Shown one piece after another: positions 2 through 10,862 of a DNA stretch of 64,000 nt (position 1 is its first letter; the number at the start of each line of letters is the position of its first letter). The notes below the pieces were generated by a model. That model was given only the letters and a program-made list of their open reading frames with translations, was not told the origin of the DNA and searched no databases. The translations under genes were made by a program, and so were the position numbers. Origin of the DNA: Nitrospira sp. GTDB lineage: Bacteria; Nitrospirota; Nitrospiria; Nitrospirales; Nitrospiraceae. The DNA lies in contig CP126121.1 in the NCBI GenBank assembly GCA_030123625.1, positions 1,652,179 to 1,716,178 of the forward strand, in the 5' to 3' direction.

Positions 2-1087
2 AAGATTCCAGTCGGAGTGCAATTTGGAAGCCTCCAGATTCATAAACCTCTCCTGCTCTGGATCAACGATGGTCTCATGGTGCTATTTTTCTTTCTGGTG
101 GGAATGGAGCTGAAACGGGAAGTCATAGAAGGCGAACTATCTGATGTGGCCAATCTGGGGCTTCCGGCTCTTGGCGCGCTGGGCGGAATGGCGATTCCCG
201 CTGGGATCTATTGGTGGGTCAACTCTGATCAGACAGGAGGCATGCATGGTTGGGCGATTCCCATGGCAACTGATACGGCCTTTTCCCTGGGTATTCTCTC
301 CCTGCTGGGTCAACGGGTTCCCCTTTCCCTCAAGGTGTTTTTGGTATCGCTTGCCATCTTTGATGATATCGGCGCTATTGTGATCATTGCGCTCTTTTAT
401 AGCTCCAATCTCTCCCCTGTAATGGTGTGGACTGCTGGCGGCTGCTTGGCGGTTCTCCTGCTCATCAACCGTAGTGGCGTCACGGCTATTCCCCTGTATG
501 CCTTGGTGGGCCTCGTAATGTGGGTCGCGGTGCTAAAGTCTGGCGTGCACGCGACGCTTGCGGGTGTTCTGCTGGCACTATTTATACCCCTCACAGATGC
601 TAAGAACCGGACTCATTCTCCGCTCCGCTTCCTGGAGGATGAACTTCACACGGCTGTGGCCTTTGTCACCTTACCCCTCTTTGCCTTCTTCAATGCCGGG
701 GTCGCCCTGGACGAGGTCACCCTACACAGTCTTACTCACCCGGTGTCCCTTGGCATTACGCTGGGGCTATTCCTCGGCAAGCAGACCGGGGTCTTTCTGT
801 TCTGCATGGCTGGGGTGTTATTGGGGATCGCCCGTCTGCCGCGGGGGGTCACCGCGATCCAGCTTTATGGGGTCGCCGTCCTATGCGGTGTCGGCTTCAC
901 CATGAGTCTGTTCATCGGTGCCCTCGCCTTTGAGGAACTGCAGCGGCCAGCGTTGTTCGATGAACGCATTGGGATTCTGCTTGGTTCACTCCTCTCCGCA
1001 ATTGTAGGGTATCTAGTGCTTTGGCTGACACTCCGAAAAGGCCGGGTACGAGAAGCCAATGACAATGAAGTGCGCGGCATGCCTTAA
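2..1087 (+). CDS. nhaA: Na+/H+ antiporter NhaA, 5' truncated by window edge
   Basis: Inner-membrane antiporter that exchanges Na+ for H+ in pH and sodium homeostasis. The reading frame is open from base 2, so the true start (about 60-70 residues earlier) lies outside the window. A GTG at 17 is only an internal codon. Counting from that GTG, the family hallmarks are visible: ATDTAF with the Asp at residue 86, and AIFDDIGAI with the paired Asp at 116-117, which match the transport-site aspartates of NhaA. VLKSGVHATLAG and the late CGVGFTMSLF helix follow. The protein ends at the usual C-terminus. An IS3 transposase scrap begins at the stop codon on the opposite strand. Assignment to NhaA is secure. 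Confidence 0.95.
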   Translation, partial: KIPVGVQFGSLQIHKPLLLWINDGLMVLFFFLVGMELKREVIEGELSDVANLGLPALGALGGMAIPAGIYWWVNSDQTGGMHGWAIPMATDTAFSLGILSLLGQRVPLSLKVFLVSLAIFDDIGAIVIIALFYSSNLSPVMVWTAGGCLAVLLLINRSGVTAIPLYALVGLVMWVAVLKSGVHATLAGVLLALFIPLTDAKNRTHSPLRFLEDELHTAVAFVTLPLFAFFNAGVALDEVTLHSLTHPVSLGITLGLFLGKQTGVFLFCMAGVLLGIARLPRGVTAIQLYGVAVLCGVGFTMSLFIGALAFEELQRPALFDERIGILLGSLLSAIVGYLVLWLTLRKGRVREANDNEVRGMP

Positions 1088-1306
1088 GCGCGCAGTGCGG
1101 CCTGATCTGATTGTAGAAGTTCATATAGCGCCGCCCCTGCTGGATGTAAAAGACGGTCTCATAGGCATGGAGATAGACCTCTTCATATTTGAGATTCCGC
1201 CACAACCGCTCGATGAAGACATTGTCGCCCCACCGCCCAGTCCCATCCACACTGATTTGAATCCCGTGGTCATGTAAAAACCCGGTGACTGCCTGGCTGG
1301 TGAACT
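1087..1306 (-). pseudogene. IS3-family transposase remnant (C-terminal catalytic part)
   Basis: On the minus strand this stretch reads as the last ~70 residues of an IS3-type OrfB integrase. It runs from QFTSQAV through HGIQISVDG, GRWGDNVFIERLWR and LKYEEVY to FYNQIRPHCAL. It keeps the final catalytic Glu (in FIERLW) but has lost the first two catalytic Asp residues. A stop (TGA) precedes QFTS in this frame. At the other end homology stops at the nhaA stop codon, where the frame runs antisense into nhaA. No terminal inverted repeats or orfA were found. It is a dead fragment showing past insertion and deletion. Confidence 0.8.
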
Positions 1307-2602: not shown

Positions 2603-2828
2603 AAGATAAAGTCCTCTCTCATAAAAATTGAGGGCTGTGATTCAACCGAACAGCTATCGCTTTGGGGTATATCTGGAACTAGCACTCTCTTGATTCCAAT
2701 TTCTTTACCTGGGACACGAGTGTTGATTCTGATGGATAAAGCCACCACTCTGAGGCATGTCAATATTCAGGCCGAACCGCTCCGGCGGGTTGGTCTTGTT
2801 TCTTCCGCTTGCAGAAAAACAGGACAAT

Positions 2829-3422
2829 ATGATCATCCCTCACATGATCCGCATACCACCGCAGAGTGGTCGCTCATTTAAGATCAAGCAAGGCCAAATA
2901 TTGCGGGTTATCGACCCTCTTGGTGAGCAGGTATCTGACCTCTTTGCTTTCGATGAGCATGACCATGATTGCCGGCTTTCTTCAGGTCGTTCGTTGGACT
3001 ATGCGGGCCGAATCTACTTGACAACGGGCGATATTCTGTATGCGAACAACAGCAAGCCCATGTTCACTATTGCTGAGGACACCGTCGGTCTACACGATTT
3101 CCTGCTGACGCCCTGCAGTCAGGAGATGTTTGAAATTCTATACAAACACAAAGGTCATCATCCGAGCTGTTTTGAGAATCTCCTTCTCTGCCTGAAGGAA
3201 CACGGCATCTCAGGAGCCGATATCTCCACCACCTTCAATATATTCATGAACGTTAAAATTGATCCCCAGGGGAAATTGACCGTCGGCGTGCCGATATCAA
3301 AGGCCGGTGACCATATCGATCTACGAGCGGAAATGGATATGGTATGTGGACTAACAGCCTGCTCTGCTGAAGGGTCAAACAACGGTCAATTCAAACCGAT
3401 CGACTTTTTGATTCTGGATTGA
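2829..3422 (+). CDS. DUF1989 (urea carboxylase-associated family) protein
   Basis: About 197 residues beginning MIIPHMIRIP. The ATG at 2829 is chosen because AGGA lies four bases upstream and the family's conserved part starts here. An upstream ATG at 2757 would add 24 non-conserved residues. Visible family signatures are FKIKQGQILRVIDPLGEQVSDLFAF, a Cys-containing LLTPCSQEMF segment, the CFENLL stretch and a C-terminal DLRAEMDMVCGLTACSAE with two Cys. DUF1989 proteins occur with urea carboxylase and nitrogen genes, or alone; their chemistry is not established. No urea carboxylase gene is nearby, so function is left open. Confidence 0.75.
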   Translation: MIIPHMIRIPPQSGRSFKIKQGQILRVIDPLGEQVSDLFAFDEHDHDCRLSSGRSLDYAGRIYLTTGDILYANNSKPMFTIAEDTVGLHDFLLTPCSQEMFEILYKHKGHHPSCFENLLLCLKEHGISGADISTTFNIFMNVKIDPQGKLTVGVPISKAGDHIDLRAEMDMVCGLTACSAEGSNNGQFKPIDFLILD

Positions 3423-3565: not shown

Positions 3566-3598
3566 CGGCCCGGAATTCCCGTCAGGAATTCCGGGCCG
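3566..3598 (-). terminator. Strong hairpin closing the amo gene run
   Basis: A perfect 14-bp inverted repeat (3566-3579 with 3585-3598) with a 5-base loop lies 17 bases beyond the stop of the downstream amoC. On the minus strand the stem is followed by a T-rich but interrupted stretch (GTTTCTGCTTTG). It reads as an intrinsic terminator or a 3'-end-stabilising hairpin for the amo transcript. Confidence 0.8.
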
Positions 3599-3614: not shown

Positions 3615-4430
3615 TTAGTACCCTGCCTTGGCGTTGGGGTTCACCTGGCTGGGGAACGGATCCAGGATGCTCTTCGGCGCGTTGTTCCAGATCACGTCCG
3701 CCAGATTCGACATCCGGCTCACGATCTGCGCCGCCACCCCGCCCGCCGCCCCGAACAACCCGCACCACCCCAGCGTCACGAAGCCCCAGTGCAACGGCGC
3801 CGAAAACAGCTCATCCACAAACCAGAACGCATGCCCCCACTCGTTCAACCCCACGTTCGGCAGAATGAACATCGGCCCCACCACCGCCGCCACGAGCGCA
3901 AACGACGTCGCCTGGTTGTACAGCGGCAACCGCGTCTGCGCATACAGATAGCTCGCCACCCCGCACGTGATGTACAATGGGAACGTCCCGTAGAATGCCA
4001 CAATATGGCTCGCCGTGAAGCTCGTGTCCCGGATGATCACTTGGTGCCACGCCGCATCCTGCTCCAACGTGTAGCTCCCCGCGTAGTACACGCCCCAGAT
4101 GTAGCACACCAACCACCCCATCCAGTAAAAGTACCGCTTCAGTTCGAGTTTGGGATCGAGGGCGGCCAAGTTGCGATCTCGTGTTGTCCAGATCCAGCCG
4201 ATCGTGACCGCAAAGAAGAGGGCATTGGCCACAATGTTAAACCGCCACAGCCCCATCCACACCGAATCAAACTCCGGGGTCATGGAGTCTAACCCGTGCG
4301 AGTACCCGAACGCCCGTTGGTACAACACCCAAAACACCCCCATCCCCAGCATCGCCAACCACCCGATCTTCACCGGCTTCGAGTCGTACCACTGCGAAAT
4401 GTCATACCCTTTATCGCTTGATGCCGCCAT
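3615..4430 (-). CDS. amoC: Ammonia monooxygenase subunit C, second copy
   Basis: 271-residue integral membrane subunit of copper-dependent ammonia monooxygenase. The CuC-site ligand pattern of the AMO/pMMO family, Asp-x3-His-x12-His, is intact at D125, H129 and H142 (in EQDAAWHQ and SFTASH). A strong AGGAGG precedes the ATG at 4430. It is nearly identical to the amoC at 8.1-8.9 kb. Differences are a shorter N-terminus (MAASSDKG against [11 protein letters not shown]) and scattered conservative changes, such as [13 protein letters not shown] against [13 protein letters not shown]. It is the last gene of the minus-strand amo run, 42 bases after the uncharacterised membrane protein gene, and is followed by the hairpin at 3566-3598. 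Extra amoC copies are known in nitrifiers and are often linked to stress or recovery; that role is inferred here. Confidence 0.96.
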
Positions 4431-4472
4431 AATGAAACCTCCTTGTTAGACTAACCTCCGCATCGAGATGCT

Positions 4473-5072
4473 TCATGCGCTGCCGGAGACCCGCCGATTT
4501 CTCAACCGTTTTGACTTCGAAAACTCATAGCCAATCAAAGCGAGGAGGAGGAGGACGGTCAACGGCCCAATGGCTTTTCTTGTAATTGTTGCATAATCGA
4601 TTTGCTGTACTCGCAATAGATAAGACGAAGGACTAAACCCTTCCGGAGTAATGATTAACTTATAAAAGCCCTTAGCCAACTTGGCTTCGCCTCTGATCAC
4701 TCCATCCAAGTGAATCGCCGGTGGCCAGTACGCCACGGTCTCATCTTCTATGGTCTCGCTGACGCCTCTTACGACTCGCACTCCCACCGGCATATTACGC
4801 AGGGCCGGATCTACAAGATCAACGACGAGGAACGTGTCGCCCTCGCCGGGAATGTCCGTGCAGTACTGGGCCTTTGCCTCATTCTGCGGTTGATACGCGT
4901 TGAAATGAACGAGATTCCCTCCGACCCGTTGGACACAGATATCTTCCTCCATGGTCACATTGCCATGTGCATCGACTACACCTGGTAGAAGGATCATAAA
5001 CACCGCCACGCCCCCAATGATTCGAGGGAACGGGACCGGCCGTTTGAGTCCGGTCGGACTGAAACCCAACAT
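4473..5072 (-). CDS. Uncharacterised membrane-anchored periplasmic protein in amo locus
   Basis: I do not recognise a named family. With the start at 5072 (GGAGAG four bases upstream) the protein is about 199 residues; an upstream ATG at 5126 would add 18. A hydrophobic helix (IIGGVAVFMILLPGVV) is followed by a plausible signal-peptidase site, so the mature protein would begin His-Gly-Asn. Next comes a ~125-residue periplasmic domain with two Cys (EEDICV and QYCTDI) and a HFNAYQP motif, then one C-terminal helix (IGPLTVLLLLALIGYEF) and a short basic tail. A mature N-terminal HG resembles the copper-binding start of AmoB/PmoB, but the rest is unlike AmoB. It lies between ftsH and the second amoC, so an AMO accessory or copper role is inferred only from context. 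Confidence 0.75.
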   Translation of the reverse strand: MLGFSPTGLKRPVPFPRIIGGVAVFMILLPGVVDAHGNVTMEEDICVQRVGGNLVHFNAYQPQNEAKAQYCTDIPGEGDTFLVVDLVDPALRNMPVGVRVVRGVSETIEDETVAYWPPAIHLDGVIRGEAKLAKGFYKLIITPEGFSPSSYLLRVQQIDYATITRKAIGPLTVLLLLALIGYEFSKSKRLRNRRVSGSA

Positions 5073-5241
5073 CAATCTCTCCGTGACCTCAACGACGAGG
5101 CTTAGTGCGACCACGATAAGGAACATCGTCTTTAGTCATAAAAAGGCATACTCTCGGAATATGAAGAACACATGATAAATTCATGAAGAATTTTTCATCA
5201 TCCTCTCGATCCAAGCATAGAGCCGCCACGTATCCCGATTG

Positions 5242-7047
5242 CTAGATAGAAATCATCGAAGAAGACCGTAGAATAATTTGGTCGATTTCCATCGCATCCA
5301 GTACCTCTTTTTCAAACAGTGCTTCCGCCAACGTTTTCAAGGTCACCATATGCTCGGTGAGGATTCGTTTGGTCTTCTCATAGTTATCTGTGACGAAGCG
5401 CTTGATTTCTCGGTCGATCTCCCACGCCATTGCATCACTGACATCCCGCTTGCCTCCTAAGGCGCGTCCCAGAAACATCGATTCTTCTTTCTGCCCGAAC
5501 GTCAGCGGCCCCAGCGTGTCACTCATGCCCCATTCGCAGACCATTTTGCGCGCGAGGTCCGTGGCGCGTTCCAAATCGTTGCCTGCCCCGGTCGTGACGT
5601 GCTTGAACACCAGTTCTTCCGCAACCCTTCCACCCAGAAGAATCGCCAACCTGTTGTCCAAAAATTCTCTGGAATAATTGTGGCGGTCGTCAGTCGGCAA
5701 CTGCATGGTCACACCTAATGCCCGGCCTCTCGGAATAATCGATACTTTATGGACCGGATCGGTGCCCGACAGAAGTTTTGCCATCAAGGCATGCCCCGCC
5801 TCGTGATAGGCAGTCACCCGCTTTTCCTCCTCCGTGAGCATCATGCTCCTGCGCTCGGCTCCCATCACGATCTTGTCCTTTGCCGTTTCGAAATCTACGG
5901 ATCCGACTTCGCTTTTGTTCCGACGGGCAGCCCAGAGCGCGGCTTCATTGACCAAGTTTGCCAAGTCGGCCCCTGAGAAACCGGGAGTCCCTCGGGCAAT
6001 TTTCTCCAGTTCTACGTCGGCTGCAATCGGCATGTTCTTCGTGTGGACCTTGAGGACCTCCGACCGACCTCGAAGGTCCGGATGATTCACGACCACTTGC
6101 CGGTCGAATCGGCCTGGTCTGAGCAGGGCCGGATCCAGCACATCCGGTCGATTGGTCGCTGCGACTAGAATAATGCCCTCCGCCGTATCAAACCCGTCCA
6201 TTTCGACCAACAATTGGTTGAGCGTTTGCTCCCGTTCATCATTCCCGCCGCCAAGCCCCGCTCCCCTCGACCGTCCGACGGCGTCGATCTCATCAATGAA
6301 AATGATACAGGGCGCATGCTTTTTCCCTTGTTCGAACAAATCCCGAACTCGAGAGGCACCGACCCCCACGAACATTTCAACAAAATCCGACCCGCTGATG
6401 CTGAAGAAGGGCACACCCGCCTCACCGGCAATGGCCTTGGCCAATAAGGTCTTCCCGGTGCCAGGGGGGCCCACAACCAGCACCCCTTTCGGAATGCGTC
6501 CGCCGAGTTTCTGGAACTTTCGCGGATCCTTCAGAAACTCAACCGTTTCCTGTACTTCCTCTTTCGCTTCATCAATTCCCGCTACATCGGAAAACGTCAC
6601 TTTTTTCCGGTCATCTGTCTGCATACGGGCCTTGCTTTTCACAACGGAGAAGGCTTGGTTTCCGACCTGCATGCGGCGCATGAAGAATACCAACAGGGCG
6701 AGAAAGAGAACGATCGGCCCCCAGGTCACGAGAAATTGTATATACCAGGAGTTTTGATCGGATGGTTTGACTTCGATCTGCACATGCTTCTCTCGCAGCA
6801 GCTGGACAAGATCAGGATAATCCGCTGCGTAGGTTCGAAGATGAGAGTTATCCTTCAGCACACCGCTGATACGATGTCCCTTGATGATGACCTTCTCGAT
6901 GTCGCCTTGATCGAGCTTCGCCATGAAATCACTAAAAATGACCTGTTCCTCTGATGCGCGTGTAGGCATATTCCATAGATTGAGGAGAAATACCATGGAC
7001 AGGCCTAACACCATCCAAAACAGCAGGTTTTGTGCCTTGATTTTCAA
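5242..7047 (-). CDS. ftsH: FtsH-type ATP-dependent zinc metalloprotease
   Basis: 601-residue membrane AAA+ protease that degrades unassembled or damaged membrane proteins. Order of parts: N-terminal helix (~8-25), periplasmic domain with [16 protein letters not shown], second helix (~107-123), and AAA+ module with Walker A GPPGTGKT (193-200), Walker B IIFIDEID (248-255) and arginine fingers in LLRPGRFDR. The zinc protease domain has HEAGH at 415-419 and a downstream Asp ligand (ERATDLAR region). The start appears to be TTG at 7047 with GAGAGG seven bases before it. The gene sits in the same direction between amoA and the unknown membrane protein, spaced 78 bases from amoA. Its place inside an amo run suggests quality control of AMO subunits (inference). 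The genome probably has another housekeeping ftsH elsewhere. Confidence 0.95.
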
Positions 7048-7125
7048 GAGTAGCCTCTCACAATGGGCTCATAGTGCTATATCACCGTGAGACCCTTTTC
7101 CAGACTTTGAAGACGTGTGTGACGT

Positions 7126-7968
7126 TCATGCTTTCCCCCCGATTTTGGCCTTATCGGCATGTGCCAGTGTGGCATAGGCGAACACATCGTGAACTTTGGT
7201 CGTGCGCTGCCGGTCATCCGTGAGGTAGAAGTAGGCGGTGCAGAAGAACTTGCCGAACTGCCACCACAGGATGTACATCAACGACGACGCAAACGCGGCG
7301 AAGAACGACGAAATCATCGTGCTGTGCCCGCCGAAGGTGCGCAGCGAGCCCACTTCGATCATCCGAATGTACTCCGGCGTCCCGGTCCGCACATACAAGA
7401 AGCCCATGTAGTCCGCCCAGGAGAGCAAGGTCCCATCGACGACGAGCGGCGTATGGCTATACGCGAAGATGGCCCAGTTCGTCGGATAGAACAGCGCGGC
7501 AAACATCCAGGCGCCGATCACCGCCGTCAGCGTCCAGTTCCGGGTCAACAACAAGACGATGTCCAGGACGATGGCGCTGGGCAGCAACGTGGCCGGCATG
7601 ACGAAGTTATAGGGATAGTTCGACCACCACCACCACGCGGCGACGATCGTGACCCATTTCCCGGCGAGCAGGGCCAAAATCGTGATCGTGGCGCCAAAGG
7701 GTTGCCGATAGTTCACCCAATTGTAGTACTGGAGCGCGGCACAGAAGGTAATGGCCGTAATCGGCGTGACGATCGGCCACCACTGCCGATCCTTCCAGTC
7801 CAACCAGAAGTCCCAGTCGCCCGCCAGCAGATCGAAGTGCATGTGGAACGTGCCCACGATGGTGACGAACAAAATCGGAATGAAATAAATGTAATCGATG
7901 TGCCGGGACATCGCGACGCCTTCCGGCGGCAGCTTCGAGGCCTTGATAATCTCATCGGTTCTAAACAT
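7126..7968 (-). CDS. amoA: Ammonia monooxygenase subunit A
   Basis: About 280-residue integral membrane subunit of ammonia monooxygenase, which oxidises ammonia to hydroxylamine. Diagnostic segments: [84 protein letters not shown] and [24 protein letters not shown]. The start at 7968 (MFRTDE) is preferred because GGAGG lies nine bases upstream; an ATG at 7977 directly abuts that GGAGG. It follows amoC by 128 bases. Where an amoB normally follows, an ftsH gene starts 78 bases downstream instead. The presence of amoA with Nitrospira-like surroundings points to a comammox organism. Confidence 0.97.
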
Positions 7969-8096
7969 AACTGACATCCTCCGTCATGTGAGATGAGCCG
8001 GCGGGCCAGCATTGCGGACCCGCCGCTTCTTACCGATGTAAACTTAGAGTTCCGGCTTTGTTTGACCTCCAGTCGTATAGTTGGCGATCAATTTAT

Positions 8097-8921
8097 TCAG
8101 TACCCTGCCTTGGCGTTGGGGTTCACCTGGCTGGGGAACGGATCCAGGATGCTCTTGGGCGCATTGTTCCAGATCACGTCCGCCAGATTCGACATCCGGC
8201 TCACGATCTGCGCCGCCACGCCCCCGGCCGCCCCGAACAACCCGCACCACCCGAGCGTCACAAAGCCCCAGTGCAATGGCGCACTGAACAGCTCATCCAC
8301 AAACCAAAACGCATGGCCCCACTCGTTCAACCCCACGTTCGGCAGAATAAACATCGGCCCAACAATAGCCGCGACTAAAGCGAACGAGGTCGCTTGGCTA
8401 TACAGCGGCAACCGCGTCTGCGCATACAGATAGCTCGCCACCCCGCACGTGATGTACAACGGGAACGTCCCGTAGAACGCCACAATGTGGCTCGCCGTGA
8501 AGCTCGTGTCCCGGATGATCACTTGGTGCCACGCCGCATCCTGCTCCAAGGTGTAGCTGCCCGCGTAGTACACGCCCCAGATGTAGCACACCAACCACCC
8601 CATCCAGTAAAAGTACCGCTTCAGCTCCAGCTTGTGGTCCAGGTTCGCCAGGTTCCGATCCCGCGTCACCCAGATCCACCCGATGGTCACCGCAAAGAAC
8701 ACCGCATTGGCCAGGATGTTAAACCGCCACAGCCCCATCCACACCGAGTCGAATTCCGGGGTCATCGAATCCAACCCGTGCGAGTACCCGAACGCCCGCT
8801 GATACAGGACCCAAAACACCCCGATCCCTAACATCGCCAACCAGCCGATCTTCACCGGCTTCGAATCGTACCACTGCGAGATGTCATACCCCTTCTCAAC
8901 AGTCGCCTGTGATGATGCCAT
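8097..8921 (-). CDS. amoC: Ammonia monooxygenase subunit C, first copy
   Basis: 274-residue membrane subunit and first gene of the amo run. The start at 8921 (MASSQATV) is set by AGGAGGT six bases upstream; an ATG at 8945 would add eight residues but lacks such a site. The CuC-site pattern Asp-x3-His-x12-His is intact at D128, H132 and H145. Six membrane helices can be traced. The last ~230 bases are almost the same at DNA level as the other amoC (3615-4430), including many synonymous sites. That is what recent duplication or gene conversion would leave. It partners with amoA downstream; no amoB is found in the window. Confidence 0.97.
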
Positions 8922-9117
8922 GCTTAGACCTCCTTTTTCGGACAATGCTATTTCCCTAACCCCCTAGCGGCCGCGAACGATGCCTCCTTTCATTGAAAGA
9001 ACGGCCGACCCATCTAAGATCTAACAAAGCACCGCTTCCTGTGCCATAAGGCACTTGCCTAAAGGACGTAAGGAAATTCCACTGGATGGAACGGCAAGGA
9101 AAGTGGAAATGGATCGG
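8922..9117 (-). promoter_or_regulatory. Leader/promoter region of the amo run
   Basis: 196 bases separate the response-regulator stop from the first amoC. On the minus strand they hold a small hairpin (9041-9054, five-base stems around ATAA), an AAAGGAGG-like segment near 8990 with no start codon after it, and the true ribosome binding site AGGAGGT just before 8921. No confident -35/-10 pair was identified. The transcription start is therefore inferred to lie here. Confidence 0.4.
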
Positions 9118-9765
9118 TTATTCGGATGAAGAAGTGAGGCCGTGGGCGAGGGCGTATTTGGTCAGTTCAGCCGTCGTATGGAGGCCCAGTTGCTCCATCA
9201 ACTTCGCCTTATGATATTCGACCGTCTTGGGAGATAAACCAAGCGTTGAAGCGATTTCTTTGAGAGTCAGTCCCTCGGCCACCAGCTGTAAGATCTCCCG
9301 CTGGCGCATCGGCAGGCGCCCCTGGCCGCCGGTACCGGGTTCCGTTTCAGAAATTGCGGAGTGAACAAGATCCTTTGCGATCAAAGAAGTGACGTAATAA
9401 TTGCCATTCCTCACGGCCTTAATTGCCTGAGAGAGCTCAGACCCGGCCGACCGCTTTAAAAGGTAGGCTGAGGCGCCGGCCTTGAATGCTTGATTGACAT
9501 AGTCCTGATCGGCATGGACCGTGACAAAAATCAATCGAGTCTCGGGAAGAATCTTCCGTAAACGGCGCGCTGCGTCAAGGCCGTTGAGTTTCGGCATCGA
9601 GATATCCAACACCACGATGTCGGGTCGCAATCGTTTCGCAGCGTCCAGCAACGACCGACCGTCTTCGACGGAACCTACTACCTGGGTATGTTCTTCCAGC
9701 AGCTTTTTAAATCCTTCCAGCACCAATGTATGGTCATCCGCTAAGAGGACGCGCGGCTTGCTCAT
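9118..9765 (-). CDS. NarL/FixJ-type response regulator
   Basis: 215 residues. The receiver domain (1-~120) has the acidic pair D10/D11, phospho-acceptor D54 (VVLDISMP), a Thr switch near 82 and K104 (YLLKRS). A linker leads to a LuxR-type helix-turn-helix (~148-208: LPMRQREILQLVAEG, LKEIASTLGLSPKTVEYHKAKLM). It acts as a DNA-binding transcription factor once phosphorylated. It overlaps the upstream histidine kinase gene by four bases (ATGA), so the two are co-translated partners. The next gene downstream in the same direction is amoC, so control of the amo locus is an attractive but unproven inference. Confidence 0.92.
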   Translation of the reverse strand: MSKPRVLLADDHTLVLEGFKKLLEEHTQVVGSVEDGRSLLDAAKRLRPDIVVLDISMPKLNGLDAARRLRKILPETRLIFVTVHADQDYVNQAFKAGASAYLLKRSAGSELSQAIKAVRNGNYYVTSLIAKDLVHSAISETEPGTGGQGRLPMRQREILQLVAEGLTLKEIASTLGLSPKTVEYHKAKLMEQLGLHTTAELTKYALAHGLTSSSE

Positions 9766-10862
9766 GCGCGCTCCTGTCTAAACGGCACCCAGGCGCAGAT
9801 CTGTGTCCCCTCGCCTGGAGTGGATTGTATACTCAGGGTGCCGGCAACCAGGGAAACACGCTCTCTCATGCTCAACAAGCCGAGGCTTCCTCGCTGACCG
9901 TCGTGACGATTCATGTCAAATCCTACTCCATCATCGCTCAGCATAAGCTGAAGACCGTCCCGCACCCGCTGAAGCTCAACGCGAACATTCTTCGCCCTGG
10001 CATGGCGAGAAATATTCGCCAACCCTTCTTGTGCGACGCGATACAAGGAGGTGACGACATCCTTCGCCACATGTTTGGGTATGTCTTTGCCTATGAACCG
10101 GGCCTCGATGCCGGTACGGGTCTGGAAGTCATCGACCAAGCGGCGGAGCGCAATAGATAAACCAAGGTCGTCAAGGATGGATGGATGAAACTGATAGGCC
10201 AGGCGGCGAACATTGTCGGAAAGCTCGACGACACGGTTCTGAATAGTGCGCACTGTTCTGACCGTACGGTCGGAAGCATCGGGAAGCTGTTGTTCCAACA
10301 TTTCGATGTCGATCGACAAGAGCGCCAAGCGTTGATTGATATCGTCATGCAGGTCGCGCGAGATTCGCCGTCGTTCTTCCTCCTGGAGACGAAGAAGCTG
10401 CGAGGCAAGCAGGCGAAGATCCCGACGGTTGGCTTCCAGCGATTGTTCGGTATCGATTCGTTTCGACACTTCACTGACGAGCGCATTGTTGACGGCCAGA
10501 AGCTCTTCACTACGTGCATGTAAGCGCGCCGCCCAACCTTCATCGAGCCGTTGGAGCTCCTCTTCGCGTTCACGACGTTGTAGAAGATACCAAATGGGCA
10601 GTCCGATCAACGCCATGCTGACGACACGAATGACCAACGGTTTCCACGAAAGTTCGTCGTAAGCCTGAGGGGAAAGGGCGGTGACATCTTCCCTTGTCCC
10701 GGATATCAAGCTTTCCATCTCGAACGGTGTCGATATTTGTTGAGGGAACAGTGAGAGGAAGGATTTCGCCACTTCTGTGGGTAGATGCAGAATCAGCAAT
10801 CCGACCATCAATATGGCGATACTGCCGGCAAAAACTCCTGTTCTCACTCGCCATACAGGCAT
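9762..10862 (-). CDS. Sensor histidine kinase, NarX/DegS (HisKA_3) type
   Basis: 366 residues, membrane-bound. Helix 1 (~9-27), a short periplasmic loop of about 48 residues, helix 2 (~76-95), a coiled-coil signalling segment (97-165), and the HisKA_3 dimerisation and phospho-acceptor motif ISRDLHDDINQRL with H172. The C-terminal ATPase has DDGVGFD and GSLGLLSMRERV, then GEGTQICAWVPF. The sensor loop is too short to suggest a ligand. It is paired with the overlapping response regulator gene. A divergent or unrelated region of 220 bases separates it from ttcA. Confidence 0.92.
   Translation of the reverse strand: MPVWRVRTGVFAGSIAILMVGLLILHLPTEVAKSFLSLFPQQISTPFEMESLISGTREDVTALSPQAYDELSWKPLVIRVVSMALIGLPIWYLLQRREREEELQRLDEGWAARLHARSEELLAVNNALVSEVSKRIDTEQSLEANRRDLRLLASQLLRLQEEERRRISRDLHDDINQRLALLSIDIEMLEQQLPDASDRTVRTVRTIQNRVVELSDNVRRLAYQFHPSILDDLGLSIALRRLVDDFQTRTGIEARFIGKDIPKHVAKDVVTSLYRVAQEGLANISRHARAKNVRVELQRVRDGLQLMLSDDGVGFDMNRHDGQRGSLGLLSMRERVSLVAGTLSIQSTPGEGTQICAWVPFRQERA

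Follow-up and report, generated by a model that had tools for sequence, protein, structure and literature searches.

The question raised by this locus of a comammox Nitrospira genome (4.69 Mb, a single contig) is what a membrane-anchored periplasmic protein does in a cluster of AMO genes from which amoB is missing. In the 64,000-nucleotide stretch of DNA that was analysed (hereafter, the window), the minus strand carries amoC, amoA, ftsH, the gene under study and another amoC, in this order (Table 1). The genome contains six amoC genes and one amoB; the latter is located 0.83 Mb away, in a complete operon, amoE-amoD1-amoD2-copC-copD-amoCAB (amoCAB at C1:819-822 kb; AmoE, orf4, at L067:6317-6904), and the cluster in the window (3615-8945) lacks it. 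Of the accessory proteins that pMMO and AMO have, two enzymes that lose activity on isolation, PmoD and AmoE are the foremost still awaiting an explanation.

A second AmoE beside a non-operonal amoC

The protein, which an earlier note on this DNA had described as unknown, missing its paralog in the operon, is a member of the PmoD/AmoD/AmoE family. Neither Pfam (E <= 1) nor NCBIfam named a family for it, and its sole match among solved structures was PmoD (6CPD; phmmer E 8e-9, and E 1e-23 with a profile from the alignment of its relatives). The AF2 model is a confident beta sandwich (domain pLDDT about 78-97) whose best Foldseek match was 6CPD (6.6e-10), and comparison of the model with 6CPD yielded a Z of 14.5 and an rmsd of 2.4 over 114 aligned residues, the next row having a Z of 8.9. 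The earlier note had proposed such a structure comparison, in which PmoD came out as the best match; the matches shown included no chain of AmoB or PmoB, an absence that by itself proves nothing. The Monooxygenase_B model (PF04744; Pfam, E <= 1) and the CopC family model (Pfam, NCBIfam) had no match in the protein, the CopC gene of this genome being located separately, in the amo operon, and no relative was found in viral contigs by tblastn. The features that accompany membership in the family (two Cys, a cupredoxin fold, a predicted signal and anchor, and a copper monooxygenase in the genome) were all found. Identity was 67% to the operon AmoE of the same genome versus 25-26% to AmoD1 and AmoD2, and the tree also places the protein with AmoE; therefore, it is a second AmoE, named AmoE2 here, which belongs to the AmoE branch rather than to AmoD.

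PmoD of Methylocystis sp. Rockwell (6CPD; PMC6189053) resembles AmoE2 in its signal peptide, single cupredoxin domain, two invariant Cys and C-terminal helix, in the residues Cys41 and His51, which have equivalents in AmoE2, and in its link to CuMMO genes. However, both proteins are 22-23% identical, the equivalent of Met49 is Leu in AmoE2, and AmoE2 differs further in adjoining a lone amoC and in having an invariant predicted N-terminal His and a His139 that is invariant in Nitrospira AmoE. The operon AmoE shares with AmoE2 the HGNV start, the HFxAYQPQ motif and the anchor, but its motif is the intact Cx7MxHxnC and its gene precedes amoD1, amoD2, copC, copD and amoCAB, whereas AmoE2 has Leu and only amoC comes after its gene.

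Several features read earlier from the sequence were borne out. The periplasmic location agrees with the predicted Sec signal and the C-terminal helix, which forms the membrane anchor in the AF2 model; C64 and C89 are the two Cys that had been noted, both invariant (84 aligned homologs), and the HFNAYQP motif occupies residues 74-80. In this motif region, the absence of the ligand Met had been overlooked. The start proposed at 5072 is a usable in-frame ATG, but it corresponds to Met19 of the longest ORF and not to its first Met. Long-form orthologs start mostly at about -56 from the predicted N-terminal His, and a 4-base insertion relative to them (ATGACT[AAAG]ACGATG; window 5110-5150) puts this usual start out of frame, so that 5126 and 5072 are left as candidates. 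Of these, 5072 has the better Shine-Dalgarno sequence (GGAGAG), and the start at 5126 adds a hydrophobic segment (5073-5126); with either of them, a Sec signal stands before His54. The dN/dS of the mature part against orthologs is approximately 0.05-0.12, and this low value, together with the invariant residues, rules out that amoE2 is a pseudogene or relic.

No promoter-like site was found in a sigma-70 scan of the coding strand of the cluster. The spare AmoC is approximately 96% identical to the operon AmoC and keeps the Dx3Hx12H motif, so it could enter AMO. Upstream of the cluster, at window 9118-10862, come genes for a histidine kinase and a LuxR-type response regulator, and such genes appear to recur by ftsH/amoE2 in related genomes. 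A DUF1989 gene (urea-amidolyase-associated-like; window 2757-3422) is a recurrent neighbour downstream of amoE2-amoC, and, at window 912-1250 of the minus strand, what looks by eye like a piece of a transposase overlaps the end of an NhaA-like gene for a Na+/H+ antiporter.

Table 1. Features of the amoE2 locus, in window coordinates.
Feature	Position	Strand	Remarks
amoE2, PmoD/AmoD/AmoE-family membrane-anchored periplasmic cupredoxin, 217 aa	4473-5126	minus	Stop codon ends at 4473; longest ORF opens at ATG 5126; alternative ATG 5072
Predicted Sec signal region of amoE2, ends V-D-A before His54	4968-5072	minus	-3 A/V, -1 A, Pro -6 in 84/85
His54 codon, predicted mature N-terminus	4965-4967	minus	Invariant 85/85
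Cys64 codon, equivalent of PmoD CuA ligand Cys41	4935-4937	minus	Invariant; PMC6189053
Leu72 codon CTC, at the position of PmoD CuA ligand Met49	4911-4913	minus	Alignment; PMC6189053
His74 codon, equivalent of PmoD CuA ligand His51	4905-4907	minus	Invariant; PMC6189053
Cys89 codon, equivalent of PmoD Cys65	4860-4862	minus	Invariant
C-terminal hydrophobic helix of amoE2, residues 178-215, membrane anchor	4482-4595	minus	AF2 model
Non-operonal amoC, Dx3Hx12H metal motif	3615-4430	minus	42 bases downstream of amoE2
Terminator-like hairpin, 15 pairs, after amoC	3566-3598	minus	Only long hairpin on that strand in the region
ftsH, AAA protease with HEAGH	5242-7047	minus	115 bases upstream of amoE2
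Second amoA, no amoB after it	7126-7977	minus	99.6% aa identity to the operon copy
Further amoC, upstream of amoA	8097-8945	minus	

Copper ligands and the predicted N-terminus

In PmoD, the CuA centre forms between two molecules with Cys41, Met49 and His51 as ligands, the mutations M49A, H51A and C41S each abolish it, and its formation is limited to family members with the motif Cx7MxHxnC (Fisher et al., 2018; PMC6189053). AmoE2 reads Cx7LxHxnC instead, Leu standing for the ligand Met, and by its motif falls outside this CuA-forming subgroup; the codon CTC is two bases away from ATG, so no single sequencing error accounts for the difference.

Homologs were taken from 61 fetched loci, and the genus was searched across 79 genomes; many listed loci represent the same species found by two routes, the totals of 84-85 refer to distinct protein sequences, and the labels clade A and clade B derive from the tree and from record names, not from formal taxonomy. 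Out of 42 copies adjacent to a lone amoC, 40 have Leu in the ligand column, one Arg and one Met, and the 19 operon copies comprise 15 with Met, 3 with Leu and 1 with Ala. A strict rule assigning Met to operon copies and Leu to lone ones fails on the three operon copies with Leu, which belong to clade A, and on the single Met and Arg of the lone set. The lone-set sequence keeping Met (L044) comes from a cut contig and was placed here with the lone-amoC set, its position in the tree not being firm. The clade B AmoE examined have Val, Ala, Ile, Leu or Thr at this position, operon copies included, and Met in none; indeed, ten genomes of this clade contain several AmoE each, operon copies among them, and no copy read has Met. 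AmoD1 of clade B comammox (L164-L174) keeps Cx8MH, although the AmoE copies were read without the CuA Met. Judged from these alignments, AmoE2 consistently lacks the Met on which CuA formation in PmoD depends. Leu72 could retain a metal site with a changed potential, and the mutant published for PmoD carries Ala, not Leu.

His54, Asp62, Cys64, His74, Cys89 and His139 are invariant in 84/84 aligned Nitrospira AmoE homologs. His139 (window 4710-4712), which is also found in the Nitrosomonas plasmid AmoE, is a possible further metal or structural residue.

The predicted mature chain of AmoE2 begins HGNVTMEEDICVQR. The start His-Gly-Asn, which had been anticipated, is consistent with the -3/-1 rule and with conservation in the complete homologs: His is present at +1 in 85/85, -1 is occupied by A in 84 and by G in one, -3 by A in 73 and by V in 10 (83/85 together), and the first Cys always lies ten residues after the N-terminal His (85/85), the signal peptide otherwise varying freely. 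The claim that AmoB also begins His-Gly holds in this genome, where AmoB reads AFA followed by HGERS, and the operon AmoE, AmoD1 and CopC likewise have His at or near +1. AmoD2 (L067:7614-8198) has a predicted start Gln-His-Gly-His, and Cx8MY instead of Cx8MH. Similar predicted starts occur in homologs from Nitrosomonas (AHGK), Methylosinus (AHGA) and Methylomonas (AHRG), the proteobacterial AmoD/AmoE comparison covering plasmid copies only. Two lone-pmoC PmoDs of Methylocystis have no such His start, and their Met and His ligands are missing too. The 6CPD chain begins at residue 37, four before Cys41, and every published construct bears a vector Ser-Met at its N-terminus; therefore, the solved structure lacks the native N-terminus, and in the published spectra this end was not free. 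The hint of the earlier note at a copper-binding N-terminal His thereby gains standing as an idea open to test, with His54 as a candidate ligand.

Association with lone amoC genes and with ftsH

Among 79 Nitrospira genomes, amoB and the PmoD/AmoE family were both found in 53, amoB only in 2, the family only in 9 and neither in 15 (Fisher p 2.5e-8). The lone-amoC copies form one group apart from the copies preceding amoD1 (SH-aLRT 99, ligand column masked), and in clade A of comammox Nitrospira AmoE2 is an orthologous group in its own right, the gene having a constant place immediately upstream of a non-operonal amoC. The gap between both genes is 30-77 bases in more than 50 of the loci listed, many of which are the same species twice. 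The recurrent neighbourhood in this clade is ttcA-amoE2-amoC-DUF1989, and the amoA, ftsH and two-component genes at the amoE2 locus are insertions common to a few related genomes. A lone amoC or pmoC adjoining a family member is also found on Nitrosomonas and Methylocystis plasmids. The conjugative Nitrosomonas plasmid NZ_CP133084 (L098:5053-6519) carries amoC together with an AmoE homolog in which the CuA motif is intact. Another extra, non-operonal AmoC is the singleton AmoC3 of Nitrosomonas europaea, linked to stress (Berube and Stahl, 2012) and, in the relevant passage of the paper citing that work (PMC6311188), thought to support AMO under stress.

In three lineages, an ftsH with an intact active site is found upstream of a gene for AmoE/PmoD. 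In six of ten clade B genomes, it is located 270-500 bases upstream of an AmoE gene; a plasmid of Methylocystis iwaonis has pmoC-ftsH-pmoD in a row, and M. rosea has pmoC-pmoD plus ftsH remnants. The M. iwaonis plasmid ftsH (L099:3930-5978), between pmoC and pmoD, is missing from the PLSDB gene table. The three FtsH types, which keep HEXXH in all intact cases, are only 48-55% identical to one another, so the association with AmoE/PmoD seems to have arisen more than once. The occurrence of ftsH beside monocistronic pmoC was known in Methylocystis SC2 and Rockwell, and the passage describing it includes a speculation on folding control of pMMO (PMC3794950). Common to both arrangements is a lone subunit C of a CuMMO next to a protease of the FtsH type, but that passage mentions no PmoD gene, whereas here a trio with AmoE/PmoD is found in Nitrospira and on a Methylocystis plasmid. 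A universal presence of ftsH at the locus was rejected, as the majority of the clade A loci for which a long stretch of upstream sequence is at hand have none, many sharing ttcA instead.

Candidate roles of AmoE2

The reading we favour, to which we assign a probability of about one half, is that AmoE2 handles copper as a factor in assembling or maintaining AMO/AmoC, binding the metal but not as a standard PmoD CuA centre. The consistent loss of the ligand Met and the joint travel with a spare AmoC suggest that AmoE2 probably helps to build or repair AMO rather than pass electrons. The protein would be exported by Sec and cut so that the chain starts His-Gly, would fold as a periplasmic cupredoxin held by the C-terminal helix, and would be made together with AmoC. 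Copper may then be bound by Cys64, His74 and perhaps His54, in a site other than the standard PmoD CuA, which would load or stabilise new or replacement AmoC in the membrane, within AMO assembly or repair, and FtsH would clear damaged subunits where ftsH stands alongside amoE2. Against this reading stand the clade A amoE2 loci, mostly without a nearby ftsH, and the imperfect agreement between motif and gene context. Out of the roles suggested in the earlier note, copper chaperone and AMO assembly factor fit the copper-family fold and the tie to AMO, and the AmoB-like substitute does not survive.

A broader proposal, tentative and rather doubtful, is that a lone amoC/pmoC, an AmoE/PmoD with altered or lost CuA and an active FtsH make up a module for the repair of copper membrane monooxygenases, taken up on several independent occasions, in which FtsH would remove damaged subunit C and the AmoE variant would load copper into the new subunit through a site including the N-terminal His, a logic comparable to the FtsH repair of photosystem II.

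An electron-transfer cupredoxin for AMO is unlikely, although it fares best among the rivals. AmoE2 would form a CuA-like dimer with Leu in place of the weak axial Met and a raised potential, an effect that an axial Leu has in certain blue copper proteins; the exchange of Met for Leu is conservative, and the Cys and His ligands of CuA and the second Cys are invariant. Electron delivery is, in addition, one of the possible roles of PmoD listed by its authors (PMC6189053). Nevertheless, the loss of CuA in M49A argues against it, the variety of residues at the ligand position in clade B, also in operon copies, looks like a relaxed need and not like tuning, and pairing with amoC only, in the absence of amoB, hardly points to a complete partner for electron transfer.

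A mainly structural role, in which the anchor would hold AmoC in the membrane until AmoA and AmoB join and copper would be incidental, is distinctly unlikely. It agrees with adjacency to amoC as the constant feature and with the lone-pmoC PmoDs of Methylocystis plasmids, which lack Met, His and the N-terminal His and are still paired with amoC/pmoC, but the invariance of His54, Cys64, His74 and Cys89 in Nitrospira AmoE2 exceeds the needs of a scaffold. It is highly improbable that AmoE2 is a redundant spare AmoE kept through duplication of the amo locus: the amoA and amoC present there are near-identical to the operon ones, but AmoE2 is only 67% identical to the operon AmoE and represents an old separate group, under strong purifying selection and with a different fixed ligand residue. 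Finally, an AmoB-like catalytic substitute can be practically dismissed, since, despite the His-Gly start common to both proteins and the presence of amoC and amoA without amoB in the window, AmoE2 has no AmoB model match and a single short cupredoxin domain and is closest to PmoD among solved structures, the amo operon supplies one complete AmoB, and the orthologs lie mostly beside amoC alone, without amoA.

Comammox Nitrospira thus offers a natural experiment, with one AmoE that has the CuA ligands and another, in the same genome, that is minus a ligand and yet still with AmoC. A Met-less AmoE2 beside AmoC, together with the absence of the motif from every clade B AmoE examined, speaks against a general requirement of bacterial ammonia oxidation for an AmoE CuA of the published type. 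The AmoE1/AmoE2 contrast separates a CuA role from a role in copper loading or assembly, and the conserved N-terminal His, absent from the published constructs, is a concrete and cheap target to test.
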